From Fibrobacter sp. UWR2 (GTDB taxonomy: Bacteria; Fibrobacterota; Fibrobacteria; Fibrobacterales; Fibrobacteraceae): 58,725 nucleotides of DNA. Every line of letters begins with the position of its first letter. The first letter of the stretch is position 1. The notes under the pieces were generated by a model. That model was not told the DNA's origin. It ran no database searches and saw only the letters and a list, made by a program, of their open reading frames with translations. Positions 33,568 to 50,656 of this stretch are shown piece after piece. Location of the stretch: contig NZ_MWQE01000013.1 in assembly GCF_002210285.1 (NCBI RefSeq), positions 1-58,725 on the forward strand, written 5' to 3'. Position numbers and translations under genes: made by a program.

Positions 33568-34521
33568 ATGAAATCACTCGCAAATATTATTTACTCCTGT
33601 TTCAAGGACAAGGGCGAATTCTCGCTCAAGGACGCCTATTCCGAAAACTCCGACAAGCCGAAGGAAACCGTCCGCGCGCGCATCTACGACAACCTCGGCG
33701 TAAAATTCGAGCGCGTCGCCAAGGGCCTGTACAAGACAATCGAGGGCGACGAAAGCTGCGTCGTGATAGAAGGCGACGGCCGCGACCTCTCCATGCTCGG
33801 GGACGCCTCCATCGACTGCATCCTGACCGACCACCCGTGGCTAGACAAGAAGTCGAACAAGGGCGGCGACCGCAACTTCGCCACTTACGACTGCTTCAGG
33901 TACACCCTCGACGACTTCAAAGAAAAAGCCCGCGTGCTCAAGGACGGCAGCTTCCTCGTCGAAATCCTCCCCGCCGAAAACGAGAACAACTACGATTACC
34001 TCTACCAGATAAAGAAATACGCCGAACAGTGCGGGCTGCTCTACTACTCGAAAGTCACCTGGAAAAAAGGGAACTTTGTCAGCAATACCGGGCGCAAGTC
34101 CAAGAACACGCAGGACGTGATGATATTCTCGAAAGGCAAGGCGCGCAGCCTGCGCATCGACGCCAAGAAAACAAAAGACACCGGGACGCCCCAGTACATG
34201 AGCGGCACCACGCAGATGCTCCCTGCAATGTTCGACATCCCGCCCGTCGCAAGGAAGAACAAGATACACCAGAGCGAACTCCCGCTGACCCTGTGCGAAA
34301 AAAACCTCCAGTTCGTGACCAAGCAGGGCGAAACCGTGCTCGACACCTTCGCCGGCAGCGGCGTCGTGGGGGAAGCCGCGCTGAACCTGAAACGCAACTG
34401 CATCCTCATAGAACTCGCCCACAGGAACATCCTCAAAATCAGGGACAGGCTCGCGGGCAACCCCTTCTTCCGGGAAGTGTTCTGGAAAGCAACCCCGGCC
34501 CCCGCCAACCTGAACGGATAA
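33568..34521 (+). CDS. DNA N6-adenine/N4-cytosine methyltransferase
   Basis: A 317-residue amino-methyltransferase (N6_N4_Mtase fold, beta class order). Catalytic motif IV appears as LTDHPW (near 90), a DPPW variant with His; the SAM-binding motif I is VLDTFAGSGVVGEAAL (near 258). Residues 1-60 form a winged-helix-like start (IIYSCFKDKGEFSLKDAYSENSDKPKETVRARIYDNLG). The target sequence cannot be told. Codon use is GC-rich and native-like, unlike the AT-rich gene downstream that may be its restriction partner. DHPW is uncommon and could alter the target base preference. Confidence 0.8.
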   Translation: MKSLANIIYSCFKDKGEFSLKDAYSENSDKPKETVRARIYDNLGVKFERVAKGLYKTIEGDESCVVIEGDGRDLSMLGDASIDCILTDHPWLDKKSNKGGDRNFATYDCFRYTLDDFKEKARVLKDGSFLVEILPAENENNYDYLYQIKKYAEQCGLLYYSKVTWKKGNFVSNTGRKSKNTQDVMIFSKGKARSLRIDAKKTKDTGTPQYMSGTTQMLPAMFDIPPVARKNKIHQSELPLTLCEKNLQFVTKQGETVLDTFAGSGVVGEAALNLKRNCILIELAHRNILKIRDRLAGNPFFREVFWKATPAPANLNG

Positions 34522-34539: not shown

Positions 34540-34670
34540 CTGCCTGCAGCCTTGCCCTTCTGTCACCCTGGATTCTATCGCTACGCTCCAGAATGACAGC
34601 AGCGATAGGGTCCAGGGCAAGTCTTCCGGACACCCCCTCCCCTAAGGGCTCCGCCCCTAAAACCCCGAAA
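34540..34670. repeat. duplicated intergenic repeat, copy A
   Basis: Shares with 35740-35930 (copy B) the blocks CCCTGCCTGCAGCC, GATAGGGTCCA(g/t)GG, GTCTTCCGGACACCCCCTC and CTCCGCCCCTAAAACCC in the same order and orientation. It also contains REP-like palindromic text (CTATCGCTACGCTCCAGAATGACA). The two copies flank the AT-rich HNH-like gene and a beheaded ORF. No gene lies in 34522-34756 apart from this. Confidence 0.7.
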
Positions 34671-35384: not shown

Positions 35385-35684
35385 AGAACACTTGTCAAAA
35401 GCGAAAACGCCTTCCTGAAGGTCCAGTCGGGCACGGGCGACAACCTGCTCGAAGAAGACATTCGGGAAGGGTTCACCAACTATTGCCTATGGTCCACGTT
35501 CCGGCCGGAAAGCATCGACACCGACGGCGAGCTGGACATGGAATGCCTGGACAGCGGCATGGTCCTGTTCAGGGAAAACTGCACCCCCGGAGAGGCGCTG
35601 GAATCGAGTTACCGGCAAGCCTTCGGCAAGGACTTCGACAAGGACGATTGCATCGTCATCCTGAGCGAAAGCGCGAAGCGCTGA
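35385..35684 (+). pseudogene. beheaded 3' fragment of an unknown gene
   Basis: An open frame of 99 codons with native GC-rich codon use and no start codon (RTLVKSENAFLKVQSGTGDN at its start, ILSESAKR at its end). It begins right at the edge of the AT-rich HNH-like gene (2 nt after its stop), so the nuclease insertion probably cut this gene and removed its 5' part. The product is acidic, with two Cys and no known domain. Confidence 0.6.
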
Positions 35685-35739: not shown

Positions 35740-35930
35740 TCATGCCAGCCCGCAAGCGGTCTGTCGCGACACTCGCCTTGCACAGTTGTCCCCTGCCTGC
35801 AGCCCCGGCTCGGTGGCCCTAATGTCATCCTGGAGGGAGCGCGAAGCGCAACCGATAGGGTCCATGGCCACACTCCCCGGGTCTTCCGGACACCCCCTCT
35901 TCTAGGAACTCCGCCCCTAAAACCCTGCAA
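35740..35930. repeat. duplicated intergenic repeat, copy B
   Basis: Second copy of the repeat at 34540-34670, with an extra left part (GCTCGATCATGCC, GACACTCGCCTT) that itself matches 1171-1220. GTCATCCTGGAGGGAGCG and GCAACCGATAGGGTCC form a REP-like palindrome pair. No gene is visible from 35685 to 36055 besides this; a GGCGCCGCAAATGCGACGCC hairpin with TTTT follows at 35961-35986 and may be a terminator. Confidence 0.7.
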
Positions 35931-36055
35931 CGCCCCGACTTTAATATCGGAAGCAGAACAGGCGCCGCAAATGCGACGCCCGTTTTGTATCTTTTTATAG
36001 TCCGTTTAGTCAGATGTGAAATTTTCGCCGATTCCAATCTGTTAGGCGGACTTTT

Positions 36056-36163
36056 TTACTTACGAGGATTGTTATTCCCGCGTCCACTGCCAGAAGGGCC
36101 TGTACCTCCGCCGTGGCCACGAGGCCATCCTGCATTATTCGGGTCATTTTGTGGTTGTGCCAT
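36056..36163 (-). CDS. tiny Gly/Asn/Pro-rich protein
   Basis: A 35-residue ORF with a near-ideal ribosome site (AAAAGGAGGCCCATC before ATG). The product is polar and disordered: it begins MAQPQNDPNNAGWPRGHG and ends GPSGSGRGNNNPRK. The N-N-P/G-W-P...GPSGxGRGNNNP pattern resembles tiny proteins I have seen in other bacteria without known function, usually in pairs with a second Asn-rich tiny protein, as here. It is transcribed after the 47-residue ORF on the same strand. Confidence 0.6.
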   Translation of the reverse strand: MAQPQNDPNNAGWPRGHGGGTGPSGSGRGNNNPRK

Positions 36164-36339
36164 GATGGGCCTCCTTTTAATAAAGTCCTGAAATGTGCCA
36201 TCCCTCTCCGGAAGGGCATTTGTAAGTATACATCCTAATTCCTGTCGCTCGCGTTCGCTCGCCTGCTACGTCACGAGCTGCAGCTTCAGAATAATAGAGA
36301 TTTTTCTTTTGACCATTGCGGCCAGTACAAGAGCACATG

Positions 36340-36483
36340 TTATTTCTTTCCCCCTTGATACTTGGAATCCATAGGATTCAGTTGACGGGAACGGTTGTCC
36401 AACATGGCTTGGTACTGGGCGTTGTGGCCAGAAGTACCCTTATTTGCGTTGCACTGATTAGCATGATTATCAATGGGCTTCAT
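36340..36483 (-). CDS. tiny Asn/Gln-rich protein
   Basis: A 47-residue ORF with AAAGAGGT 5 nt before the ATG. The product begins MKPIDNHANQCNANKGTSGH, continues NAQYQAMLDNRSRQLNPMD and ends GGKK. The NANKGTSG...QY...NRxRQLNP pattern is protein-like and recalls a widespread but uncharacterised class of tiny disordered proteins. It is on the same strand as, and 176 nt upstream of, the 35-residue partner; the gap holds a short CGCTCGCGTTCGCTCG repeat. Confidence 0.6.
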   Translation of the reverse strand: MKPIDNHANQCNANKGTSGHNAQYQAMLDNRSRQLNPMDSKYQGGKK

Positions 36484-36673
36484 TTTTACCTCTTTGATAA
36501 AACGAAAGCGGCTTTGCTTTCGTGCAACAATCTTTTGCGAAGATTGATTGCGAAAAAGAAATCTAAGCTATTCTTGCAAAGATTTGTAGATTAACGGCAA
36601 AATAGCCGAAGGATATTTTTTCAAGGTTTTAGAAGTACGCAGAAAAATTACAAGGTTTGACGCTTTTCCTGTT

Positions 36674-38251
36674 CTAGGGAGTTTTTGAATTACTCTTATT
36701 CAGTTTATAAATGCATATCAGCAGTAGCATTATATTGGTGAATGCAGGAAGTTTTTCCCAAAAGGATTTTTCAAAGTCGTTATTAGATACAAGAAAAAAG
36801 TTTTTTTCGTGTTCAAGAGACCACGAGAATGCCGATGCAAAGAAAAATAGGCAAAAACCAGTGCTGTCTATATCATGGGATTTATTATTAGTTTCTTTAG
36901 ACTTTTCTTCTAAAATTTCGTCAGAATTTTCATCTTTAACGGCAGAATCAAGATTTGTCCATAAATAATCAAACAACGAAATAATCATATATGCGGAAAT
37001 GAAAGACGATTGATTATTTTGAACCATTACCCAAAATTTTTCTACAGCTCTCTTCTTTTTTTCTGAATCCTTCTTCCTTATAAAGAAACTAATGTTATTT
37101 AGAATGGTACTTTCAGTTGTAATGGAAACACTGTTTTTGTATAAAGTTGCCAAATTATCGTTTTGAAATTCGGGAAGAATTCCATCTGCCATATCCTTTA
37201 AAATGGATAAATCTTGATTATTGGCAAGTGTTGAAAAGATTTCTTCTGGAGGCAGCCCCTTTCGTCCCCATTTGCGATAATCTTTTTTAGAAAGAGTGGA
37301 AATTTTTTCTTTAGTTATTTTATTTAATAAACTTGGATTGGCTAGGGTTTCAAATTGTTTCACCGCTCTTGCAGGAATACCCCTATTAGCTTCAATAAAG
37401 TCAAGACTGTAAAAATGCACATTAAAAAAGCGCGCAAGAAGCCATATCTTATCTAACGGCTGTCGATGGGCGCATTCTTTTGAAAGCCCATCTATACTGC
37501 TTATACAGGCTTTTTTCCAAAAATTGCACAATTGTTCGTTATTAAGATATTCTGGCGAAAAAAAGTGGAGATAACGTTCAAAAAAAGGTTCTTCCTCGGG
37601 ATTGATGTTTGCGAGAGAAATAACTAAATCGTTAGGGACAATTCCGAGTGTTTTATTTTCGATTGAGCTGTACTCACCATTTTTTTTGACTGTGATTCCC
37701 AGAAATCTTTCTACAAAATATTCCTTATTCCTTCTTTTTAAGAGTTGCCAAAGTCGAGCAACGCTCCATCCAAAAGATAATTCCAAGGCAATATTTTTTT
37801 CTCTTTGTGTCAACTCTGCTATAGGGCTCCAATCTATATCATCAATCGCAATATAGCCATATGGTTCTCTTGATTGATATGATTTTATCCATTGAGCAAT
37901 GCCCTGGCCTCTTTTGTATTTTTTTATTGTATCGCTTTCTTCCCATTCTGCCTGAGAAACACCTTCAGGCCTAGTTGGATCACACAGATGATTGTAGTGT
38001 TTGCGTATTTTTTTTAAATAATTTTCAGCCAACGAATCCTGTTTAAAAAAGCCAAATGCGCATAAAGCGGTATTTTGCGGTGTAGGCGCTTTTTCAATAT
38101 GATTAAACCAAAAATTTAAAAATTCAATGTGGTCAAAAAAATTTTTGCAAATATTATGATAATTTGTAATTGCCGATTCGATATAATGCCGACAATCCTC
38201 ATCTAGCAAGTCGTGAGGTTCGTATGTTTCAGCCTTTTTTCTTCGTCCCAT
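36674..38251 (-). CDS. orphan 525-aa protein at island edge
   Basis: AT-rich gene, unlike the neighbouring core genome. The product starts MGRRKKAETYEPHDLLDEDC, is largely helical, and has two hydrophobic stretches near the C terminus (TGFCLFFFASAFSWSL near 467 and FTNIMLLLICIYKL near 503) that could be membrane segments. RNKEYFVERFLGITVKKNGE and a helix-turn-helix-like LSFGWSVARLWQLLKRRN (near 178) are the only other landmarks. The family is not recognised. A TATATTT box ends 6 nt before the ATG. It diverges from the defence genes and may be part of the island. Confidence 0.7.
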   Translation of the reverse strand: MGRRKKAETYEPHDLLDEDCRHYIESAITNYHNICKNFFDHIEFLNFWFNHIEKAPTPQNTALCAFGFFKQDSLAENYLKKIRKHYNHLCDPTRPEGVSQAEWEESDTIKKYKRGQGIAQWIKSYQSREPYGYIAIDDIDWSPIAELTQREKNIALELSFGWSVARLWQLLKRRNKEYFVERFLGITVKKNGEYSSIENKTLGIVPNDLVISLANINPEEEPFFERYLHFFSPEYLNNEQLCNFWKKACISSIDGLSKECAHRQPLDKIWLLARFFNVHFYSLDFIEANRGIPARAVKQFETLANPSLLNKITKEKISTLSKKDYRKWGRKGLPPEEIFSTLANNQDLSILKDMADGILPEFQNDNLATLYKNSVSITTESTILNNISFFIRKKDSEKKKRAVEKFWVMVQNNQSSFISAYMIISLFDYLWTNLDSAVKDENSDEILEEKSKETNNKSHDIDSTGFCLFFFASAFSWSLEHEKNFFLVSNNDFEKSFWEKLPAFTNIMLLLICIYKLNKSNSKTP

Positions 38252-38470: not shown

Positions 38471-39919
38471 ATGAATGTTTTGCTTGATACAAGTATTATT
38501 CTCAACAAGATTCTTGGAAATAAAGCCGACCAAGATGTCAAAATTCTCTTTAAATGGCTCGATCGTTCGAAAAGTCAAAAAGTCATTCACGCTAGGACGG
38601 TCGAAGAATTGCGGAAAACGGAACCAACCGCATTTCTGTCGCTGAACTTGTCAGAATTTAAAGTCATTCAAGAAGAACCAGCCGAGCAGAATGCTGACGG
38701 TGCGTATCTTTTAAACACTATTGCATCGAATTGCGCCGACATACTCATTTCCGAAGATGTGCGAATCCATGCAGAGGCAAAATCGCTTAATCTTGCAGAC
38801 AGGGTACTCGACATTGACCAATTTCTTGAAAAAGTCTTTGCGGACAATCCGGAAATGGTAGATTACAAAGTTCTTAATGTCCAGAAAATTCCTTTCGGCA
38901 AGATTGACCTTGACGATCCGTTTTTCCTTTCCTTAAAGAAAGACTATATGGGCTTTGCGGAATGGTTCCAAAGAAAACGCAACGAAACGGCCTACATAAC
39001 CTTTAATTCCAAGAACGGAAAATTGCTTTCGTTTCTTTATTTGAAAATTGAAGGCCCTGAAGAGAACTATGCAGACATTCAACCGGCTTTTCCTCAAAAG
39101 AAAAGGTTGAAGGTAGGGACTTTTAAGGTTATCCGTAATGGCTTTAGGCTCGGAGAAAGGTTCCTCAAAATCATTTTCGACAATGCACTGAAACATAAGG
39201 TCGACGAAATCTACGTAACTATTTTTGATAGAAGTGACGAACAAAAACGCTTAATCGCCCTGATGGAAAAATGGGGCTTCGTCTATTGGGGGAAGAAGGG
39301 CGAAGAAAACGTATATGTCCGCAATTTCGTTCCAGAATGTGATAACGAGAACGTGAACAAGACCTACCCGTTCATTTCCAGGAACCGAGATACCTATATC
39401 GTGCCGATATACCCGGAGTACCACACAGAACTGCTTCCGGACTCCATCCTGAATACCGAGTCCCCCGAAGACTTTGTGGAAGATTCGCCGCATCGCAATG
39501 GCATTTCTAAAGTCTATGTTTCACGAGCATGGGAACCGCACCCCCGCAAAGGCGACATCCTTGTTTTCTATAGGACTGGCGGACTCTACAAGGGCGTTGT
39601 AACGACAATCGGCGTGGTTTCTGATACAAGGGAGTCCTTTGCAAACAAGGAAGAATTCATCAAGTATTGTCTGAGAGGTAGCGTTTTCCCCGAAAAAGAA
39701 CTCGAAAAAATGTGGGACTACAAGCCACAAAAGCCTTTTGTTGTTAATTTTCTTTATGTATATTCATTCCCGAAGAGAATCAACATGGAACGGCTTATTG
39801 ATATGGGAATCTTCAAGGGTGTCAATGATGCCCCGAGAGGGTTTTACAAAATATCAAAAGACCAGTTTGAATCCATCTTAAAGGAGACTGCGAGTGAAGG
39901 CCGTTTTATTGTCGATTAA
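38471..39919 (+). CDS. PIN-GNAT-PUA-like fusion protein
   Basis: A 482-residue protein with three regions. Residues 1-135 look like a PIN nuclease: MNVLLDTSIILNKI (first Asp D6), a middle HARTVEELRKTEP (Glu), and CADILISEDVRIHAEAKSL (acidic C-terminal pair). Residues 155-285 have GNAT acetyltransferase form: FFLSLKKDYMGFAEWF, LKVGTFKVIRNGFRLGERFL, and LMEKWGFVYWG. The rest (near 350-482) has PHPRKGDILVFYRTGG and VVTTIGVV, as in EVE/ASCH/PUA-like RNA-binding modules. The next gene, overlapping by 26 nt, encodes a separate ASCH domain. The set suggests an RNA- or tRNA-directed toxin or effector. It has a GGAGG ribosome site. Confidence 0.75.
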   Translation: MNVLLDTSIILNKILGNKADQDVKILFKWLDRSKSQKVIHARTVEELRKTEPTAFLSLNLSEFKVIQEEPAEQNADGAYLLNTIASNCADILISEDVRIHAEAKSLNLADRVLDIDQFLEKVFADNPEMVDYKVLNVQKIPFGKIDLDDPFFLSLKKDYMGFAEWFQRKRNETAYITFNSKNGKLLSFLYLKIEGPEENYADIQPAFPQKKRLKVGTFKVIRNGFRLGERFLKIIFDNALKHKVDEIYVTIFDRSDEQKRLIALMEKWGFVYWGKKGEENVYVRNFVPECDNENVNKTYPFISRNRDTYIVPIYPEYHTELLPDSILNTESPEDFVEDSPHRNGISKVYVSRAWEPHPRKGDILVFYRTGGLYKGVVTTIGVVSDTRESFANKEEFIKYCLRGSVFPEKELEKMWDYKPQKPFVVNFLYVYSFPKRINMERLIDMGIFKGVNDAPRGFYKISKDQFESILKETASEGRFIVD

Positions 39920-40271
39920 GCCAGAATTCGCCCACAAGATTTTTGAAGGCTCGAAAAAGTTCGAGTTCCGTAAGCAGGTTTTTAAGGACGCTTCTGTAAA
40001 GAAGGTTATCGTATATTCGTCTTCGCCGGAACAGAAGGTTATTGGCGAATTCGAAATCGAGACAATTTTGAGCGATACTCCAGACAATATCTGGATACAG
40101 ACTAGTTTTAATTCTGGTATTACTCAAGAGTTTTACAATGAGTATTTTGAAGGCCGAGACAAGGCTTATGCTATCAAGGTTGCCTCGACAAAGATGTACC
40201 GCAGGCAAAAAACTTTGGCCGATTTTAACATTCAATCCGCACCGCAATCTTTTGCGTATGTGGAAGTGTAG
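39894..40271 (+). CDS. ASCH-domain protein
   Basis: A 125-residue single-domain ASCH (PUA-like) protein: VLLSIKPEFAHKIFEGSKKFEFRK (split view: the SIKP, GxKxxEFRK signature) and VIGEFEIETIL. ASCH proteins bind RNA or modified nucleobases, and some are amidohydrolases of modified cytidine. GTG or ATG start at 39894 overlaps the PIN-GNAT gene by 26 nt, so they are co-expressed. It precedes the 5mC methyltransferase by 20 nt, so it may be part of the same operon. Confidence 0.8.
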   Translation: MKAVLLSIKPEFAHKIFEGSKKFEFRKQVFKDASVKKVIVYSSSPEQKVIGEFEIETILSDTPDNIWIQTSFNSGITQEFYNEYFEGRDKAYAIKVASTKMYRRQKTLADFNIQSAPQSFAYVEV

Positions 40272-40291
40272 GGATTTCTTTGGATTACAAA

Positions 40292-41413
40292 ATGGACAAG
40301 AAAACTTTTGATGTTTTTTCTTTCTTTTCAGGCTGTGGAATGCTAGACTTAGGCTTCGAGAAAGCCGGCTTTAACATTGTTCAGGTAAATGAATATTTTG
40401 AACCATTTTTAGAAGCTTATCGTTATTCTAGAAAAAAGATGAGTATTAAACCACCAAAATTTGGATACGATAATTGCGATATAAATGGGTATTTAACAGA
40501 GGGAGCATTAAAAACAGCCTTAACTGAAAATTTGAAAAAAGAAAAAAATTTAGTTGGGTTCATAGGTGGACCTCCCTGTCCTGATTTCTCTATTGCAGGG
40601 AAGCAAAAAGGACGCAAAGGAAGAAATGGCGTTCTTTCTCTTTCATATACAAATTTAATTACTTCATTTTCTCCTGACTTTTTCTTATTTGAAAACGTGA
40701 AAGGTTTGTGGAAAACTGCAAAACACCGTCGTTTTTATGACGCATTAAAACGGATTTTTACAGCAGCAGGTTATTGTCTCACAGATCGATTGTGTAATTC
40801 TTTGGAATTTGGCGCGCCACAAGATCGTGATAGAATTATATTAATAGGAATAAAAAAAGATATACTAAAAGAGGAATACTACAACAAGAAGAACGTACTA
40901 TCGTCTTTTCCTTGGGATCAAAACATAAGATATTCGATACAGGATATAAAAGATATGAAATGGCCCCAAGAGGATGTTTTTCGGAAAGATAGCGTCCGCG
41001 CTTGTCCAGAAGGTATTGCGAATGAACTCACTGTTGAATATTGGTTTAGGCAAAATGATGTAGATCATCATCCCGATAAAGATAGGTTCTTTAAGCCTAA
41101 AGCAGGTCTTTCTAGGATGAAAACGATTTCGGAGGGTGATTCAAATAAGAAATCATATAAGAGAATTCATCGTTGGAGGTATTCTCCTACTGTTGCATAT
41201 GGAAATAATGAAGTTCACTTGCATCCGTATAAAGAACGTCGTTTATCTGTTGCTGAAGCGATGGCTCTTCAATCCCTACCTAAGGAATTTGCGTTACCTC
41301 AATCCATGACTTTAACCAACTGCTTTAAAACTATTGGCAACGGAGTCCCATTTCTTCTTGCAAACGGGGTTGCAAAATCACTACACGAATATCTTGAAAA
41401 AGCATTAAAATAA
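40292..41413 (+). CDS. DNA 5-cytosine methyltransferase
   Basis: A 373-residue C5 cytosine methyltransferase. Motif I is VFSFFSGCGMLDLGFEKAGF, motif IV GFIGGPPCPDFSIAGKQKG (catalytic Cys of PPCP), motif VI FLFENVKGL, motif VIII QDRDRIILIG, motif IX RRLSVAEAMALQSLP and motif X TIGNGVPFLLANGVA. All essential residues are kept. The ATG at 40292 is chosen over the TTG at 40280. It is the first enzyme of the long defence operon and would mark self DNA for the nuclease-helicase downstream. Target unknown. Confidence 0.9.
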   Translation: MDKKTFDVFSFFSGCGMLDLGFEKAGFNIVQVNEYFEPFLEAYRYSRKKMSIKPPKFGYDNCDINGYLTEGALKTALTENLKKEKNLVGFIGGPPCPDFSIAGKQKGRKGRNGVLSLSYTNLITSFSPDFFLFENVKGLWKTAKHRRFYDALKRIFTAAGYCLTDRLCNSLEFGAPQDRDRIILIGIKKDILKEEYYNKKNVLSSFPWDQNIRYSIQDIKDMKWPQEDVFRKDSVRACPEGIANELTVEYWFRQNDVDHHPDKDRFFKPKAGLSRMKTISEGDSNKKSYKRIHRWRYSPTVAYGNNEVHLHPYKERRLSVAEAMALQSLPKEFALPQSMTLTNCFKTIGNGVPFLLANGVAKSLHEYLEKALK

Positions 41414-41426
41414 AAAGGTCGGAAGT

Positions 41427-43946
41427 ATGAAGTTCGATTTTACACCAGATCCAAAGATTTTAATTGCGTTGACGCACACATCCATACAACCATTGGATGC
41501 ATTATGCGAATTAATCGATAACTCCATAGACTCGTTTTACAGTGCGAAGATTGATGGAGAAAAGATTGACGATCCGATAATAGTCGTAGAACTACCCACC
41601 AGAAAAAATTTAAGCGAAAATTCAGGCGTCTTACGAATACAGGATAACGGCCCTGGAATGACATCAGAAATAGCAGAAAAGGCTATTAAAGCAGGATATT
41701 CTGGGAACAATCCTTATGATACTTTAGGCCTTTTTGGAATGGGCTTTAATATTTCTACTGGGAAATTGGGCAACCGGACTACTTTTTATACAAGCAGATC
41801 AGACATGTCTGTCTGGGTGAAAACGGAAATTAATCTTGAAGAGATAAACAAGAAAAAGGATTACTCACTAGATGTAGAAGAAATTCCTAAGAAAGAACTT
41901 GCTATTGGAAACCATGGAACGATTATAGAGATAAGAGATTGGTGGCCAGAGGGCAATCAAAATCGAAATTGCATTTTAAAACTGATTCAATATGGGATGC
42001 CGAAAATCCGAGAAGAAATCGGCAGGCGATATGCTTCCATTTTGAGAGAGGGGAAAATAAAGATCTCCATAAATGGTGAAAAATGTGTTCCTTTTGAACA
42101 TTGTATTTGGGACAAAAAGAGATTTGTTGTACGAAAGAATGGAAATGTCCCCGCATGTTTTGAATTTGATCAGGTAATAGGATCAAATCGTCGTTGCGGG
42201 AAATGTAGAGCAATTCTTCCGTCGGAGGAAACCACATGTCCACATTGCGGTTCAAATTCAACTAGGACGATTGAAGAAAGAATAAAAGGATGGATTGGAA
42301 TTCAAAGATTTGATTCTGATACTGAATTCGGTATAGATTTAATTCGCAACGGTCGTGCAATAAAAATTGCAGAAAAAAATGCTTTCTTTGAATATGTTGA
42401 TGAATTTAAGAGAACCATTAAGGATTATCCCATTGACTCACAGTACGGACGAATTGTCGGCGAAATCCATTTAGATTTTGTTCCTGTTGATTTTATGAAA
42501 CAGGATTTTCAAAGAACGAGTGCAGAGTGGTCAAGAGCCATGACTTTCATTCGTGGGAACAGCTCTTTACAGCCAACACAACCCAATGCAGACTCCAACA
42601 TTTCGCCACTATTTAAGCTTTATCAAGCGTATAGACGAGTTAGAAATTTTGGCCGTGGTGACATGTATATGGGTTATTGGGAAGATGGTTCAGCACATAG
42701 AATATCTCGCGATAAAGAAAAAGAACTTTATGAAAAATTCAAGCAAAAACTTCCTGGTTATTACGATGACAGTGAATGGTGGAAATTAGTCGAAAATGCT
42801 GATCAACCCCCTGTTGAAGAATTGCCTATTTGTCCTCAATGTGGCTCCCAGAATTTAAAGGAAGATGAAACTTGTAGTGTTTGCGGATATATTTTACAAG
42901 GAAAAACATGCGTATTTGAGGCGTGTGGAAAATATATTCCAAAATCGGCAATAAATTGTCCTCATTGCGGTGCAGATCAGACACCAAAAATTCTTGAACC
43001 ATGGATATGTGAAATTTGTTCAACAAAAAATACAGCTAATGCGTCAAAATGTTCAAAGTGTGGCTCTGCCAAAGGGTTCAAGAATCCATTATCAGAAGAC
43101 AATTTACTGAATAATTCAGAAAAAATCGATTCCTTGTCTTGTTCTAATTTGATTGTTAGATACCCTGATGGCGAAAATAGCCAACCTATTCAGGTAGATG
43201 TTTACGCCGTTCGAACGCCAATGCAAATACCAACGTCTCGACATACAACCCCAATTATTGTGGAAAAGAGTGTTGGGAAAATGTCGGTTTTCTTAGACCA
43301 CCGTCATCCAGTCTTCTCACAATACAATGTTTCGAAAGAGCATATGATTGCAAGTGAAATAGCCATGTATTTGTTTAACGCTCATCCGCTTAATGGCAGT
43401 AAAAATGGGCATAGTTTAAGCAATTTAATATGGCGAGTTCTAGATACAAGATGGAAAAATACATTAGAAGTTAATGTTGATTCTGTCTATAAAGAAGCCT
43501 CAGAGTTTATGGATGATTTGCGCTTAAAAATGAGCGACCTTCTGAAAGAGCATGCATCGACCTATTTCAATGAACTCGATAACGAACAGAAAAAAAGTTT
43601 GACCAATTCATTGATTTCTAGCGAAATTGATCTTTCGACAATTGGCGAACTTAAAGATTCAGGAGCGTATTTACTTTATGTGCCGTATTCTTTTTTGATC
43701 TCCATATTCCATGACAATCCAGAAAAATTCTTTAATGGGGCAATATGGAAAAATTCGTTAGCCATTGGCGGAGAAGAGCTTCTTGGGGAAGACAATATAC
43801 TGTCCATGCGAGAAAAACTGATTCGGCAATATGAAAATTGTTTGCATGATGTCCTGCAATTCCTAGAAAATAAGTATTCTGACACCATAACACTTCAACG
43901 AGTAAAATTATCCATTGAGTTTTTAAGAAAAGAGATGGTTACATAA
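41427..43946 (+). CDS. MORC/MutL-like GHKL ATPase with four zinc ribbons
   Basis: An 839-residue protein. The GHKL ATPase is at the N terminus: N-box ELIDNSID (28-35), DNGPGM (73-78) and GLFGMGFNIS (101-110). A first zinc ribbon CGKC...CPHC (near 255-275) interrupts the transducer region. Three more follow: CPQC...CSVC, the CGKY-CPHC pair, and CEIC...CSKC (near 472-550). The C-terminal 280 residues are helical and unknown. The N-terminal part matches the MutL/MORC-type ATPases of composite restriction systems described by Iyer, Abhiman and Aravind. It lies 13 nt after the methyltransferase and its stop overlaps the next start (TAATG). It may act as a DNA clamp or sliding sensor. Confidence 0.85.
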   Translation: MKFDFTPDPKILIALTHTSIQPLDALCELIDNSIDSFYSAKIDGEKIDDPIIVVELPTRKNLSENSGVLRIQDNGPGMTSEIAEKAIKAGYSGNNPYDTLGLFGMGFNISTGKLGNRTTFYTSRSDMSVWVKTEINLEEINKKKDYSLDVEEIPKKELAIGNHGTIIEIRDWWPEGNQNRNCILKLIQYGMPKIREEIGRRYASILREGKIKISINGEKCVPFEHCIWDKKRFVVRKNGNVPACFEFDQVIGSNRRCGKCRAILPSEETTCPHCGSNSTRTIEERIKGWIGIQRFDSDTEFGIDLIRNGRAIKIAEKNAFFEYVDEFKRTIKDYPIDSQYGRIVGEIHLDFVPVDFMKQDFQRTSAEWSRAMTFIRGNSSLQPTQPNADSNISPLFKLYQAYRRVRNFGRGDMYMGYWEDGSAHRISRDKEKELYEKFKQKLPGYYDDSEWWKLVENADQPPVEELPICPQCGSQNLKEDETCSVCGYILQGKTCVFEACGKYIPKSAINCPHCGADQTPKILEPWICEICSTKNTANASKCSKCGSAKGFKNPLSEDNLLNNSEKIDSLSCSNLIVRYPDGENSQPIQVDVYAVRTPMQIPTSRHTTPIIVEKSVGKMSVFLDHRHPVFSQYNVSKEHMIASEIAMYLFNAHPLNGSKNGHSLSNLIWRVLDTRWKNTLEVNVDSVYKEASEFMDDLRLKMSDLLKEHASTYFNELDNEQKKSLTNSLISSEIDLSTIGELKDSGAYLLYVPYSFLISIFHDNPEKFFNGAIWKNSLAIGGEELLGEDNILSMREKLIRQYENCLHDVLQFLENKYSDTITLQRVKLSIEFLRKEMVT

Positions 43947-45679
43947 TGTTCGATAATTTGCGCGACATTGCAAACAGTTCATGGCAGGCTTTTGAACGAA
44001 ATATTTGCCGATTGCTTCTGTATATGGGATTCTCAAATGTTCGACTTGTCGGACAACGAGATGACCATGGAGCCGATGTTGCAGCAATACGATATGGGAA
44101 AAAATGGCTGTTTCAGGCGAAACACTGGAAAAAGGCTGTAGGAGATTCTGTTCTTGAAGAAACGCTAAAAGCTCTATATGAGTACAAAGCAGATATACCA
44201 GTAGTTGTTGCCTCTATGGGGTTTGACTCTTCAGCCAAACAGTATCAACAAAATTTGATGCGCTATAATAAAGTTCCGATGCAACTATGGGATGCATTAA
44301 GACTGGTAAATGAAACAGAAAAACTGCCTGAAAAAACTTTGAATACTCGCAGCATTCGCAAATATCAGGAATCGGCGATAAAAGAAATTACAGGCGCATA
44401 TTTTTCGGGTGAAAAAAGAGCTCTTGTGGTTCTTGCTACTGGTTTAGGAAAAACATTTGTTGCTGCAGAAAGTATTCGAAGAATTCGGGCAATTGAACAA
44501 AAAAGAGTTCTTGTTTGTGCACATACTAATGACTTAGTGTACCAATTGGAACGCGCCTTTTGGCCGTTTCTTAAACCTTCAGAAACGACTCTTGTTTGGA
44601 ATAATTATGAACCACAAAATAACGAAAGCTTAGAAAATGCAGATTTTACTTTTGCTTGCGTTGACACTGTTTACAATTATATAATTAATCGAAAAGAGCT
44701 CCCCATATTTGATATCTTATTGGTTGATGAATGTCATCACGTTGGTTCATCCATGTATGACCAAGTGTTTGATTATCTTGCTGCGGGAAAAGAAAACGGA
44801 GCTTTCGCATTAGGGTTAACAGCAACACCGTGGCGGGCCGATGAAGTTCAAATATCAAAATACTTTGGTGAGCCCAAAATAAGCGTAGACATAATTGATG
44901 GGTTGAAAAACGGATTCTTAGCAAATATTGATTACAGAATATTTACAAATAATATTGATTGGAATTCACTAAAAAATATAAAAGGAAAATCTTTTTCACC
45001 AAAGCAGATTAACAAAACTCTTTTTATTAATCAATGGGATGATTCCGTCGTTGATACATTCCATGAAGCATGGAATGAACAAACCTATCCAAGAGCAATT
45101 ATCTTTTGCGGAACTATTGAACACGCAATAACGATGAAAAATAAGATAAACGCTTTAGGTTTTTGTAGAGCGGAAGCAATTTATTCCAATGCATCAGATC
45201 GTGGATTTGAAGCAATGGGGCAATACAAAAGAAATAGAATATTAAGCGATTTTGACGAAGGGAATATAAATGTTATCTGTGCCGTTGACATTTTTAATGA
45301 AGGAATTGATGTTCCTGATGTTAATATTTTAGTATTTCAGAGGGTTACACATTCTAGAAGAATATTTATCCAGCAATTAGGAAGAGGATTACGTCTATCT
45401 GAAGGTAAAGACAAAGTTATTGTGCTAGATTTTGTTTCTGATATACGACGATTTGCCGCCGGTATTTCTCTAAAAAATTCGGTTTGTTCAACGCGTGACG
45501 CAACACGAATCGATTTGCCGAATAAAGTGACTTTCTACAAGGCGAATAAAGAGGACCCTCAATCGGAATCGTTTTTGAGACAGTGGCTGGATGATGTTGT
45601 GGCTATTGAGTCTTCAGATGAAGACGCCAGTGTATTAAAGTTCCCTCCTGCATTCGAAGAGCAATACGATGACTTATAA
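43946..45679 (+). CDS. Mrr-type nuclease fused to SF2 helicase
   Basis: A 577-residue fusion. Residues 10-110 form a Mrr_cat PD-(D/E)xK nuclease: WQAFERNICRLLLYMGF, DHGADVAAI (Asp) and LFQAKHWKK (QxK). Residues 130-500 form a DEAD/DEAH superfamily-II helicase: VVLATGLGKTFVAAESI (Walker A), LLVDECHHVGS (DECH), LGLTATPWR (motif III), AIIFCGTIEHA (IV), FNEGIDVPDVN (V) and QQLGRGLRLS (VI). It would translocate on and cut DNA, as in type I/III-like restriction. It overlaps its neighbours on both sides (1 and 11 nt). Confidence 0.9.
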   Translation: MFDNLRDIANSSWQAFERNICRLLLYMGFSNVRLVGQRDDHGADVAAIRYGKKWLFQAKHWKKAVGDSVLEETLKALYEYKADIPVVVASMGFDSSAKQYQQNLMRYNKVPMQLWDALRLVNETEKLPEKTLNTRSIRKYQESAIKEITGAYFSGEKRALVVLATGLGKTFVAAESIRRIRAIEQKRVLVCAHTNDLVYQLERAFWPFLKPSETTLVWNNYEPQNNESLENADFTFACVDTVYNYIINRKELPIFDILLVDECHHVGSSMYDQVFDYLAAGKENGAFALGLTATPWRADEVQISKYFGEPKISVDIIDGLKNGFLANIDYRIFTNNIDWNSLKNIKGKSFSPKQINKTLFINQWDDSVVDTFHEAWNEQTYPRAIIFCGTIEHAITMKNKINALGFCRAEAIYSNASDRGFEAMGQYKRNRILSDFDEGNINVICAVDIFNEGIDVPDVNILVFQRVTHSRRIFIQQLGRGLRLSEGKDKVIVLDFVSDIRRFAAGISLKNSVCSTRDATRIDLPNKVTFYKANKEDPQSESFLRQWLDDVVAIESSDEDASVLKFPPAFEEQYDDL

Positions 45680-46385: not shown

Positions 46386-47032
46386 TGCCAATTGATCAAG
46401 AGTCTTTAAAAAAAGATTTGCTCAATATGAATGAAAATGAGTTTTATATTAAGCATATTTTAAAATCAAGGAATTGGTATTTTTCTCAGTATAGGAATTT
46501 TAAAGACGATGTACTTATTGATAAAATTGACGAGTTTAAAGAAATTATCTCAAAAAATTTTAATGTTAGTTTTCATAGCGTAAAAATGGTTGGCAGTGCC
46601 AAAGTGGGCTTTAGTTTGTCTCCTGATAAAGGACTTAAAGAATTTCATGATGGGAATAGCACCGAAAAGGCGTCGGATATAGATGTTGCAATAGTGTCAG
46701 ATAGATTGTACAATGAGTATTGGGATTTTTTTCGAAGGGAAAACAACGTTAATTACTATTTCCCTTTAGCAAGAACTTTTTGGCAGGTTTCGAGTTCAAT
46801 ATATAAGGGGTTCATAAATTCCTGGAATATCCGTGAAATCGACAATATGCGAAAAAAATGGGATGCGATTGTAGATCCTACAAATAGGGCTCTACGTGAA
46901 AGACTTTTTATTCGCCATGAAATAAACTATCGTTTGTATAGAAATTGGGATGACTTACGAGAATACCAACTAAATGGAATTATTGAAGTGCAAAAGAAAC
47001 ACAAAGAAAAGAATGGAGGCGACAATGTTTAG
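46385..47032 (+). CDS. Pol-beta-type nucleotidyltransferase
   Basis: A 215-residue nucleotidyltransferase-fold protein. MVGSAKVGFSLSP (near 62) supplies the GS motif and KASDIDVAIVSD (near 97) the DxD, with a spacing of about 27 residues, longer than in MNT proteins and closer to SMODS/CD-NTase-type enzymes. A third acidic residue is not assigned. The rest is helical. Possible roles are making a nucleotide signal or modifying tRNA or protein. It is co-translated with the flanking genes. Confidence 0.7.
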   Translation: MPIDQESLKKDLLNMNENEFYIKHILKSRNWYFSQYRNFKDDVLIDKIDEFKEIISKNFNVSFHSVKMVGSAKVGFSLSPDKGLKEFHDGNSTEKASDIDVAIVSDRLYNEYWDFFRRENNVNYYFPLARTFWQVSSSIYKGFINSWNIREIDNMRKKWDAIVDPTNRALRERLFIRHEINYRLYRNWDDLREYQLNGIIEVQKKHKEKNGGDNV

Positions 47033-48188
47033 ATACGATGACACGAAAAAAACAATCAATGAAATTCATACCATGTTTAAAGAGGGGTCGCTGATAGTAG
47101 ACGATAGCTATCAACGCCGATCTGTTTGGGGGGAAAAAGACAAAGTTCGCTTGATTGAAACCATATTACTACAAATGATTGTTCCAGAATTGTTTTTTTG
47201 GAGAGCGAAAACTGACCCACAAACAGGATCGTCGATTACTCATATTGTTGATGGTCAGCAACGCATAAAAGCTATATCTGAATTCGCTAATGGACAATTT
47301 AAATTGTCTGAAAGGTACTTAATTAACGAAGCAAAGAAAGATCAATTTAAAGATAAATTTTTTAATGATTTGTCAGATGCAGAAAAGACCAATTTTTGGA
47401 ATTACACACTAGTTGTTATAGACATAAAATCGGAGACGGAGAGGAATGAAATCGTAGATGTCTTTAACAGGCTTAATTTGACTAATTATTCTCTTAATTC
47501 GCAAGAAAAGAGGCATACAAAATCTGGTTTGTTTGCGGAATTGGCAGAGGAAATCGCAAGTGAACCCTTTTGGGGTAATTATAAACTATTTAGCGGCGTT
47601 GATGTAAAACGAATGAAGGATGTTGAATTTTGTGCAAACTTGATTGTTTTGCAACAAAAGGGAATTATTGATCAGATAAATCAGCAAGTATTGAATGATG
47701 CTTATGCAGACATGCAAGAAGAGTATCCTAATAAAAATGAGGACAAAGAGTCGATAATAAAGGCGATTTCAGGTGTAGAACAGCTTATCGTGTCAGAGGA
47801 GATGATGCTGTTTGCTAGAAGAAAAACGCAGTTGTACACGTTGTTTAGCCTTGTTCTGGCAATGCAAAGAGACAACAAAGAGATTAACGAAGTTTGTATA
47901 GATCGTTTGAATAAATTTGTAAAATTGTATTCGCGATTTAAAAATGATCCTCAAATACAAGAAAGTTTGGACTCCAATCAAAAAATAATTTACGATAGGC
48001 TGAATAATTACAAGTTAGCGTCGTCGGAAGGTTCGAGAAAACTAGCAAATAGAATGATTCGATACGAAATTTTGTCAAATTTCATTAATGAAGGCAATGC
48101 AGATTTAATTGCCGCTATGGATTCTTTAAGAGTGAAATTGGGCCTTGATTTGAGTAATGTAGAAGATGAAAACTCCGATGAACAATGA
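47025..48188 (+). CDS. DUF262 (GmrS/ParB-like) protein
   Basis: A 387-residue protein with an N-terminal DUF262 domain: VDDSYQRRSVWGEKDKVRLI, ETILLQMIVPELFFWR and ITHIVDGQQRIKAISEFANG. The DGQQR motif is the family nucleotide-binding/hydrolysis site, as in GmrSD type IV restriction and the BrxU family. The GmrD-type HNH (DUF1524) domain is absent; the C terminus (to ENSDEQ) is helical. Without it the protein is more likely a sensor or DNA-binding NTPase than a nuclease. GGAGG precedes the ATG, which overlaps the previous stop by 8 nt. Confidence 0.8.
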   Translation: MFRYDDTKKTINEIHTMFKEGSLIVDDSYQRRSVWGEKDKVRLIETILLQMIVPELFFWRAKTDPQTGSSITHIVDGQQRIKAISEFANGQFKLSERYLINEAKKDQFKDKFFNDLSDAEKTNFWNYTLVVIDIKSETERNEIVDVFNRLNLTNYSLNSQEKRHTKSGLFAELAEEIASEPFWGNYKLFSGVDVKRMKDVEFCANLIVLQQKGIIDQINQQVLNDAYADMQEEYPNKNEDKESIIKAISGVEQLIVSEEMMLFARRKTQLYTLFSLVLAMQRDNKEINEVCIDRLNKFVKLYSRFKNDPQIQESLDSNQKIIYDRLNNYKLASSEGSRKLANRMIRYEILSNFINEGNADLIAAMDSLRVKLGLDLSNVEDENSDEQ

Positions 48189-48196
48189 GGTTTGTT

Positions 48197-49819
48197 ATGA
48201 AAGAAAATGAAACCTTATTTAAAGCCTGGAGTGGTTTCCTTCAGCAAGAAAGTATTTTGAATGAAGATGACTTGAAAAATCTTCAGGATGTTTCTTTTTG
48301 TAGGAACCACAATTTTCTTGGCCGCTACAACATCCCTGTTATCTTATTGAAGAGTGTTGTTGAAAACGACCATAAATATGACGGACGGCTTTACAAACGA
48401 TTCTTCTTATTTGATAAGTATTCTATAAGTAATGATTGGTATCATTCGGAAACAGAAACAAATCGAAGAGATTTCTTTAGATGGTTTGTAGATCTTTGTA
48501 AGCAAAGGGGTGTTTATAATAAAGTTCCCCAAATTATAATTGAAGAAGCGGAATCTTCAGACAATGGCAAAAAAAATGATCTATTCAAAAACAATACTGT
48601 AAAAGATAAACAAAAAACTAAAAATACAGGTGTTATGTCTTATTCTCAAAACATTCTCTTCGGTGCTCCGGGTACTGGAAAGTCTTTCAAGATTGACGAC
48701 CCTGAGAAAGGTTATGGCTTAAAGAATGTTGATGAATCCCGTAAATTCCGCACCACGTTCCATCCTGATTACGATTATGCGCAATTTGTAGGTGCCTACA
48801 AACCGCAAAAAAATCAGGTCGCAAATAAAGCCCTTAACAAAAACGAATTGACTGCCATTCTAAAAGAAATGAAGGATGGCAACAATTATCCTATTCACAA
48901 ATTTTCCGCGTTGTATTCAGACTCGCTTTTGAAGCTTTCTAATGCAGAACAAATTGAAATTATAAAAGAAGCGGATTCTCCAGAATCAATGGCTGTCGAG
49001 CTGAAAAAAGGAATTGCTGTTGGTGAATATTTGAAAGAGAAAATTGACGGAGGTTCCATTACCTATTCTTTCGTTCCACAGGTTTTCGCAAAGGCTTACG
49101 CTGCTGCTTGGAAGCAGTATTTCGCTGCGGGTAATGTATCGACTGTCGACAATCAGGTCTATCTCGTTATCGAAGAAATCAACCGCGGGAACTGCGCCCA
49201 GATTTTTGGCGATATTTTCCAGTTGCTTGATCGTGATAGTGCTGGATTCTCGCAGTATGCAATTGATGCAGATTGCGATTTCGCCGAATGGCTCAAGGAA
49301 AATGGAATCGGCGATGGCAAGCTCAAGCTCCCACCGAACCTGAACATTCTCGCCACCATGAATACCAGCGACCAGTCGCTGTTCCCCATGGATAGTGCGT
49401 TCAAGCGTCGCTTTGATTGGGAGTATGTGCCGATTTCGTTTACGGACGAAGAAGGAAATGAAAAAGAAGCTGCCAAGTACGAAATAGACATTCCTGACGC
49501 TAACGGGAAGAATTATCTTTGGCAAAATTTTGTCGAAGCCGTCAATGATAAGATTCTAGACCTCACCGAATCCGAAGACAAGCAACTCGGCGAATTCTTC
49601 ATCAAGCCTGACAACGGCAACATCATTTCTAAGGAACGCTTCCTCGGCAAGGTGATGTTCTACCTTTGGAGCGAGGTCTGCAAAGACGAACATAAAAACG
49701 GCTCATTTTTCCGTGCAAAAATCAATGACAAGGAAGATTTCTTTACTTTCCAGGACCTTTACAAGAAAAAGGACCTTTTAAAGCTGTTTATGGATGGATT
49801 GCTGGCTCCTAAAAACTAA
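48197..49819 (+). CDS. McrB-like AAA+ GTPase
   Basis: A 540-residue McrB-type motor (544 if the ATG at 48185, which overlaps the previous stop, is used; 48197 has GAGG at a good distance). The AAA+ domain starts at ILFGAPGTGKSFKIDD (near 154), has YLVIEEINRGNCAQIFGDIF (Walker B plus McrB signature, near 318) and ATMNTSDQSLFPMDSAFKRRF (the NTxD GTP-specificity motif). The first ~147 residues are a separate domain of AT-rich composition. An internal Met in MSYSQNILFG (48635) looks like the start of an ordinary McrB of native composition. It forms a restriction motor with the nuclease at 50657. Confidence 0.88.
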   Translation: MKENETLFKAWSGFLQQESILNEDDLKNLQDVSFCRNHNFLGRYNIPVILLKSVVENDHKYDGRLYKRFFLFDKYSISNDWYHSETETNRRDFFRWFVDLCKQRGVYNKVPQIIIEEAESSDNGKKNDLFKNNTVKDKQKTKNTGVMSYSQNILFGAPGTGKSFKIDDPEKGYGLKNVDESRKFRTTFHPDYDYAQFVGAYKPQKNQVANKALNKNELTAILKEMKDGNNYPIHKFSALYSDSLLKLSNAEQIEIIKEADSPESMAVELKKGIAVGEYLKEKIDGGSITYSFVPQVFAKAYAAAWKQYFAAGNVSTVDNQVYLVIEEINRGNCAQIFGDIFQLLDRDSAGFSQYAIDADCDFAEWLKENGIGDGKLKLPPNLNILATMNTSDQSLFPMDSAFKRRFDWEYVPISFTDEEGNEKEAAKYEIDIPDANGKNYLWQNFVEAVNDKILDLTESEDKQLGEFFIKPDNGNIISKERFLGKVMFYLWSEVCKDEHKNGSFFRAKINDKEDFFTFQDLYKKKDLLKLFMDGLLAPKN

Positions 49820-49834
49820 GGGACTTGCTTTTGC

Positions 49835-49872
49835 AGTTTTTGTATATTATATTGGTGATATAGGAGTTCAAG
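49835..49872 (+). promoter_or_regulatory. promoter of the UPF0175/DUF3368 pair
   Basis: TTTTTGTATATTATATTGG holds a TATATT -10 box (49846-49851 region) with TTGCTT/TTGCAG-like -35 candidates 15-20 nt upstream, then TAGGAG before the ATG. It gives the toxin-antitoxin-like pair its own transcription inside the McrBC genes. Confidence 0.45.
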
Positions 49873-50151
49873 ATGACTATGGGCACATTGGCATTTGAGG
49901 TTCCCAAAGAGATGGAATCGTTCGTTGAGGCAAATGGCTGCCGCAGCGAATTGCTTCGTAATGCATTGATCCTTTTGCCCTACATACAAGATTTGACAAT
50001 CTCCCATGGTCGCGCGGCAGAACTACTTGGCATATCGAAAGAAACGCTAATTAACTTGTACGGGGATATGGGTATTCCCTATCTTGATGGCAGCATCCAG
50101 TCCGTACACGAAGAAATGGCCGTTTACTCCGCAGCGAAGAAAAAAGAATGA
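49873..50151 (+). CDS. UPF0175 antitoxin-like protein
   Basis: A 92-residue protein of the UPF0175 family: FEVPKEMESFVEANG, a helical LLRNALILLPYIQDL, and a helix-turn-helix-like ISHGRAAELLGISKETLINLY followed by GDMGIPYLD. Members are coupled to DUF3368 PIN-like proteins and are considered antitoxins that also repress their promoter. The stop overlaps the next start by 4 nt. Confidence 0.85.
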   Translation: MTMGTLAFEVPKEMESFVEANGCRSELLRNALILLPYIQDLTISHGRAAELLGISKETLINLYGDMGIPYLDGSIQSVHEEMAVYSAAKKKE

Positions 50152-50654
50152 TTGTTGTTTCCGATACGACCCCGATTATTTCGTTGTTGAAAATGAATCG
50201 GTTGCAATTGCTGCACAGCCTTTTTGGCCGTGTGTGCATTCCGTTCGCTGTATTCGAAGAGTTGACGGGTAATCCCAATTACCAGGATGAAGTCTCCATT
50301 TTGCGAGGTTCCGATTTTATTCAAGTTGAAGAAGTTGCCAATGCCGGGGATGTCCAAGTAATAAAAAATGATGGTCTTGATATCGGTGAGAGCGAAGCCA
50401 TTGTCCTGGCGAAACAACTTTCTGCAGATGTCCTTTTGATGGATGAGGCCAAGGGAAGGCAGGTCGCGTCTCGATACGGCCTTCAAATTATGGGGACCGT
50501 TGGCATTTTGCTGCAAGCTTTTAAAGATGGTCTTCTTTCTTATCACGAGATAATTGATTGCGTCTTTTCGCTGCGTCGTAATCATCGCCGGATAAGTGAA
50601 AACCTGCTCATGGATCTTATGAAAGAGATTGAGCGTATTGAATCGAGCCGATAG
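50148..50654 (+). CDS. DUF3368 PIN-like toxin candidate
   Basis: A 168-residue DUF3368 protein with PIN-fold features: VVSDTTPIISLLKM (first Asp), CIPFAVFEELTGNP (Glu), DIGESEAIVLAKQL (Glu), ADVLLMDEAKGRQVA (Asp-Glu) and LQIMGTVGILLQAF. It is likely an RNase toxin partner of UPF0175. It is followed after 2 nt by the McrC-like gene, so the pair is inserted in frame with operon structure. Confidence 0.85.
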   Translation: MIVVSDTTPIISLLKMNRLQLLHSLFGRVCIPFAVFEELTGNPNYQDEVSILRGSDFIQVEEVANAGDVQVIKNDGLDIGESEAIVLAKQLSADVLLMDEAKGRQVASRYGLQIMGTVGILLQAFKDGLLSYHEIIDCVFSLRRNHRRISENLLMDLMKEIERIESSR

Positions 50655-50656
50655 GC

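Follow-up and report, generated by a model that had tools for sequence, protein, structure and literature searches.

At least three very small conserved proteins that recur in pairs or trios beside predicted anti-virus genes

Are the very short open reading frames that lie among the defence-type genes of Fibrobacter sp. UWR2 genuine genes, and if so, to which system do they belong? The question is raised by a stretch of 58,725 nucleotides (positions 1 to 58,725 of contig NZ_MWQE01000013.1, assembly GCF_002210285.1), hereafter the window, in which a preliminary description had singled out a pair of tiny disordered proteins of 35 and 47 residues with excellent ribosome sites. Both frames are found exactly where they had been placed, on the minus strand. 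Gene A (36340..36483, 47 aa) belongs to a family with the motif N.NKGTSG.N...Y....NR..QLNP, and gene B (36056..36163, 35 aa) to a family with the motif GWP...GPSG.GRGNNNP. They do not form a pair, as a third conserved minus-strand gene, M (36177..36338, 53 aa), lies between them; it encodes a zinc-ribbon-like protein (CxC...YxCP...GWH), and its ATG is 1 nt past the stop codon of A. Nor is the resulting trio free-standing, since the gene upstream of it on the same strand, Lg (36674..38251, 525 aa, of no known family), is a linked partner (see following). The order on the minus strand is Lg (38251-36674) - A - M - B. The Shine-Dalgarno sequence of B (AAGGAGG, 6 nt spacing) is indeed excellent, but that of A (GAGG, 5 nt spacing) is moderate. 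No Rfam RNA matches within 35850-36750.

A is identified by its open frame, its homologues, and pN/pS, M by its open frame, its homologues, and their alignment, and B by the same evidence as A together with its Shine-Dalgarno sequence. Of 60 relatives, 12 have a homologue of A and 12 a homologue of B; for B, five matches are weak (E of 0.02-0.08). Summed over pairs, pN/pS comes to 0.32 in the 15 pairs (6 loci) of A and to 0.15 in the 36 pairs (9 loci) of B. For M it is 0.15 in six loci other than the window, with G036, G133, G005, G030, and G128 also left out of the computation. Between the window and G133, A has six synonymous changes and no non-synonymous one. A, M, and B are under purifying selection, and homologues together with pN/pS rule out non-coding or chance open frames; the view that A and B are non-random mini-genes was correct. 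It is certain that A, M, and B are three conserved coding genes that travel together.

The 53 aligned members of family A (N.NKGT.G.N...Y....GNRG.QLNPN) share nine invariant positions (N, N, G, G, N, N, R, Q, N), all of which are present in the A protein of the window, and the family is conserved along its whole central length, with no variable core. The AlphaFold model made from 53 A sequences has a mean pLDDT of 70 and a helix at residues 22-35 (pLDDT about 80). Because of this predicted helix, A is probably at least conditionally structured, and the term disordered suits the composition of B but not A. Family B (GWP....PSG.GR.N) has a core of G, S, G, G-R, and N that is common to the B protein of the window and 12 other members. 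Among six aligned M proteins, C2, C41, W47, and H48 are invariant; M looks like a zinc ribbon and would then bind zinc.

Family libraries miss these mini-genes, in line with the earlier supposition. For A and B, there is no Pfam match above cut-off, no NCBIfam match, and one weak match in PHROGs (E 0.26). A search of solved structures gives no relative of A, B, or M, and a fold search for A gives no match. The motif strings of these small proteins are absent from print in literature text searches, and among the titles and abstract openings gathered by topic none describes these families. A sub-threshold match of the window A to ChaC (Pfam PF04752, E 0.011) is shared by only one of the 53 A members; hence, it is a chance match, and a relationship to ChaC is rejected.

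The linkage of the three genes was analyzed in 167 genomes of the window's phylum. A is sporadic (33 places in 27 genomes), and B and M are found at 27 places in 24 genomes and at 40 places in 33 genomes, respectively. At some of these places, M is a domain of an open frame of at least 200 aa, or is present in tandem. At 8 of the 33 A places, A, M, and B occur together on one strand within 700 nt, systematically in the order A-M-B. M without B lies near A at three more places (same distance and strand). Under random placement, about 0.004 A-B pairs would be expected in the 167 genomes. A adjoins a divergent B (..NPNWPSRTGNPSGGGRGNNPPSK), without M, in a second genus of the window's family. The B gene of G154:C28 was missed by the phylum B search and was found by eye.

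Lg provides the second element of the association. It has no match in Pfam or PADLOC (its homologue in L249 likewise lacks a PADLOC model), and its one match among solved structures has an E of 0.68. A profile search of the phylum gives 10 Lg matches in 9 genomes, and A, B, or M is directly downstream on the same strand in 8 of them. This is the case for A-M-B in G000, G128, and G133, for B or B-M in G143, G150, and G030, for a double M in G033, and for A at a second locus of G128. The other two matches (G016:C30 and G007:C24) have none of the three. Remote Lg-like proteins of 445-527 aa are encoded upstream of six further A loci, and the window Lg matches three of these six (E 7e-5 to 0.002). 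In L029, a 25%-identical relative of Lg precedes a lone B. The viral contig L141 has a homologue at the same position (29% identity), in the order Lg - A - B - M, and a search of viral contigs with Lg gives no other relative. A functional link of A, M, and B with Lg is very probable.

The association is nevertheless not with one particular Lg. A minus-strand block that includes the trio is about 96% identical in G128 (35881..36561; in G133, 35923-36561), and the similarity stops abruptly 78 nt upstream of A. Identity over the trio-side flank (35394..35647, plus strand) is about 94% for G128 and for G133, and 92% for G005. In contrast, the Lg proteins encoded beside the trio in the sister genomes G128 and G133 have only 29% identity to the window Lg. 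From this difference, it looks as if a distant homologue took the place of the large gene while the small genes stayed, at what is apparently the same chromosomal place. In conclusion, the trio is recurrent as a unit and linked to Lg, yet separable from it. The window also has two imperfect direct repeats (34603-34670 and 35853-35930) separated by 1.25 kb, of which weaker copies exist at other sites of the genome.

The preliminary description had also placed the small genes between a restriction-type module and a defence island, and this is what the neighborhood contains. An N6/N4 DNA methylase gene (33568-34521) is found left of the trio. To the right, divergent plus-strand genes of defence type (38471..45679) encode PDC-M11A (PIN-like), PDC-M11B (ASCH), a cytosine methylase, a GHKL ATPase with zinc ribbons, and Mrr plus a helicase. 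The whole of 38471-45679, from PDC-M11A/B through the Mrr-helicase, looks like one large uncharacterised system. Farther along, genes for a GmrSD_N protein, a REase_II-like AAA protein, and an LlaJI-type restriction endonuclease stand in a row (46974-52726). The setting of the trio is likely to be a defence-type one. Our leading interpretation, to which we give a little less than an even chance, is that A, M, and B form an operon-like set and serve a mobile module of defence type (phage conflict) as small accessory proteins, Lg being its large component here. The mechanism that could be proposed for such a module is, on its own and taken as a whole, doubtful. A and B would be linear peptides that become ordered upon binding one conserved partner, and M a small zinc ribbon contacting nucleic acid; the three would jointly restrain or license the large protein, and infection would upset this control.

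Outside the phylum, a single peptide pattern matches 318 stretches in 84,980 species genomes, and a relative of A is encoded by 257 of the stretches. The best 80 of these 257 loci were taken further and, together with relatives from viral contigs (where 26 of 34 pattern matches are not relatives of A), make a set of 88 loci. According to record titles, the best 80 include loci of organisms that we take to be Bacteroidota, Pseudomonadota, Spirochaetota, Campylobacterota, cyanobacteria, and Myxococcota. The same titles include Mucispirillum, Desulfuromonadales, Anaerolinea, a member of Acholeplasmataceae, and a Bacillota bin. Most members of family A are separate proteins of about 40-60 aa. In Vibrio plasmids, proteins of 237-245 aa contain the A motif with a further region on either side (L046 6794-7531, L049 5854-6567), and an M-type zinc-ribbon repeat lies inside a DEAD/DEAH helicase (L053 830-976). 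Marinomonas alcarazii has a tandem of A genes with 18 nt between the two (L310 7246-7545).

The search for B outside the phylum covered 50 of the best 80 loci, i.e., 49 named A-bearing genomes. B is present in three of them, A without B being by far the commonest arrangement, and in two of the three B adjoins an A. In a member of Bacteroidota (G200/L120), B lies 64 nt before A; in a member of Saprospiraceae (G197/L301), the order on one strand is A - A2 (TDNRANQLNPNNDVYW) - B. In Acinetobacter tianfuensis (L299), an A2-like peptide (NNHANQLNPNH) is followed after 2 nt by B. A plasmid of Treponema saccharophilum has A, then A2, a double M, a 79 aa protein (HicA-like as judged by eye), and a viperin operon. 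Among viral contigs, tblastn reveals no relative of B; a plasmid search for B yielded nothing, and a typed consensus of A has no match in phages. The suggestion that the motif pair recurs in other bacteria is thus borne out, in the second genus of the window's family, Saprospiraceae, Bacteroidota, and A. tianfuensis. The order is consistent in all eight same-phylum trios. It is not invariant, being A-B-M in L141 and B-A in L120, and B is scarce among A-bearing genomes.

This frequent occurrence of A without B or M speaks for a different and rather unlikely explanation, in which the small genes are independent elements of a selfish or addiction type, or else make up a small toxin-antitoxin set, and are carried along in these islands with no part in the working of Lg. 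The A family does lie beside many unrelated genes, in an integron region, in tandem duplicates (the Marinomonas case), and, in L084, directly before HicA. The placement of A, B, or M directly downstream of Lg in most Lg matches argues against such independence, as does the observation that a replaced Lg gives way to another Lg. Moreover, no toxin or antitoxin family is recognised in A, B, M, or Lg. Two-gene toxin-antitoxin modules do resemble these loci in being mobile and sporadic and in combining a tiny basic protein with a larger, sometimes Xre-type HTH, protein; they differ in that here there are three small genes and the partner is not constant. The interpretation of A, M, and B as accessory proteins of a mobile module remains the preferred one. 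In keeping with mobility, A is present in viral contigs, of which L135-L137 appear by eye to be Mu-like prophages. In a plasmid of Klebsiella quasipneumoniae (L045 6929-7210), an A-type peptide gene is found in the region of a class 1 resistance integron.

In the phylum, a gene on the same strand directly precedes A (within 700 nt) at 20 of the 25 A loci examined, and most of these genes are from a few families: Lg and its remote relatives, proteins of 766-795 aa (with ankyrin repeats in the one tested), proteins of about 225-235 aa without family (the one tested, of about 225 aa, has none), and few others. In L256, the gene that separates a lone B from an MkoA-like helicase encodes a 235 aa protein resembling, by eye, those of about 225 aa. 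Outside the phylum, the downstream neighbour of A is on the same strand in 55 of 68 cases, which is above 50%, though bacterial genes are co-oriented anyway. In 16 of the 88 loci, a protein of about 220-360 aa is encoded directly after A; these loci are not all independent, because the proteins of L096, L104, and L109 are identical. The model of a 218 aa partner (pLDDT 85) matches Xre-type HTH domains at its N-terminus and, weakly, beta domains, none of them at E 0.001. A position before a large partner, the Xre-like HTH of the 16-locus partner, the very short length of the genes, and their strong ribosome sites would all suit regulatory leader or sensor peptides, whose translation or abundance sets the expression of the neighbouring large gene. 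We consider this improbable, as in the phylum A, M, and B come after Lg and not before it, conservation is at the level of amino acids and not of codons alone, and the A motif is also embedded in the Vibrio proteins of 237-245 aa.

In eight Bacteroidota loci of the 88, A is followed by a GT/radical-SAM fusion or its parts, with a WG-repeat-like protein in all eight and a histidine phosphatase in most. The same cassette follows Lg and the double M in G033, so that two separate routes connect A, M, and Lg with a single system. The GT4-like/radical-SAM cassette may be a conflict system associated with A, M, and Lg. Among known systems, it corresponds to the GT4-conflict/radical-SAM cassette (Pfam PF20706 and relatives). 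Neither this cassette nor a RiPP-modifying enzyme was found among the neighbours scanned beside the window trio. A GT4-like/radical-SAM fusion, a histidine phosphatase, and a WG-repeat protein are shared by the window's genus and Bacteroidota (L309 6456-10070, L068 5187-9399). It is very improbable that the small proteins are RiPP-like precursors modified by neighbouring radical-SAM and glycosyltransferase enzymes, since, despite these eight loci and the viperin-type radical-SAM genes near others, A is conserved along its length and has no variable core, and most loci, including the window, have no radical-SAM gene beside A.

Returning to the accessory-protein interpretation, viperin or viperin-kinase genes, HicA, HicA-like genes, and an IetA-like AAA gene are also found near A, B, or M loci. 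Many A loci have unremarkable neighbours, and several lie beside genes without a defence look. Because the same families adjoin unrelated defence-type genes elsewhere, they may serve different large effectors or sensors as a common kit. A wider version of this idea is possible, if on the unlikely side: A, A2, M, and B would be interchangeable mini-proteins, an add-on of many unrelated immune modules in about ten phyla, forming a control or sensing kit that stays in place while the large effector joined to it is exchanged.

Viperin provides one of the closest parallels. Prokaryotic viperin loci with an adjacent HicA or RelE (PMC10865869; PADLOC pVip/HicA-like models) likewise combine an antiviral gene with small neighbours inside an island. 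A, A2, or B is found at viperin loci in L050, L098, L120, L122, and L253 (in L098 and L120, viperin was identified by eye and alignment), but most A and B loci, including the window, lack viperin. Section 10 of the published account (Gerdes 2024, PMC10865869) does not mention A, A2, B, or M. In the reverse test within the phylum, A or B lies within 1.5 kb of 1 of 13 radical-SAM matches, and M is adjacent to one more; a viperin-specific role was dropped on this ground. The window's own genome has no viperin match at E 1e-40.

Catalogues of defence islands rest on proteins long enough for annotation. If a handful of families of 35-55 aa are obligate parts of many such modules, then numerous systems, cloned or predicted, have been assayed or described in incomplete form, and the missing small proteins could explain systems that failed. 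The question is immediately testable, because the families are conserved, making deletion tests easy, and occur in well-studied Neisseria, Acinetobacter, Shewanella, and Treponema. In an Aliarcobacter plasmid (L047 6995-7871), an A-type peptide gene is directly followed by one for a Thg1-like tRNA-His guanylyltransferase.
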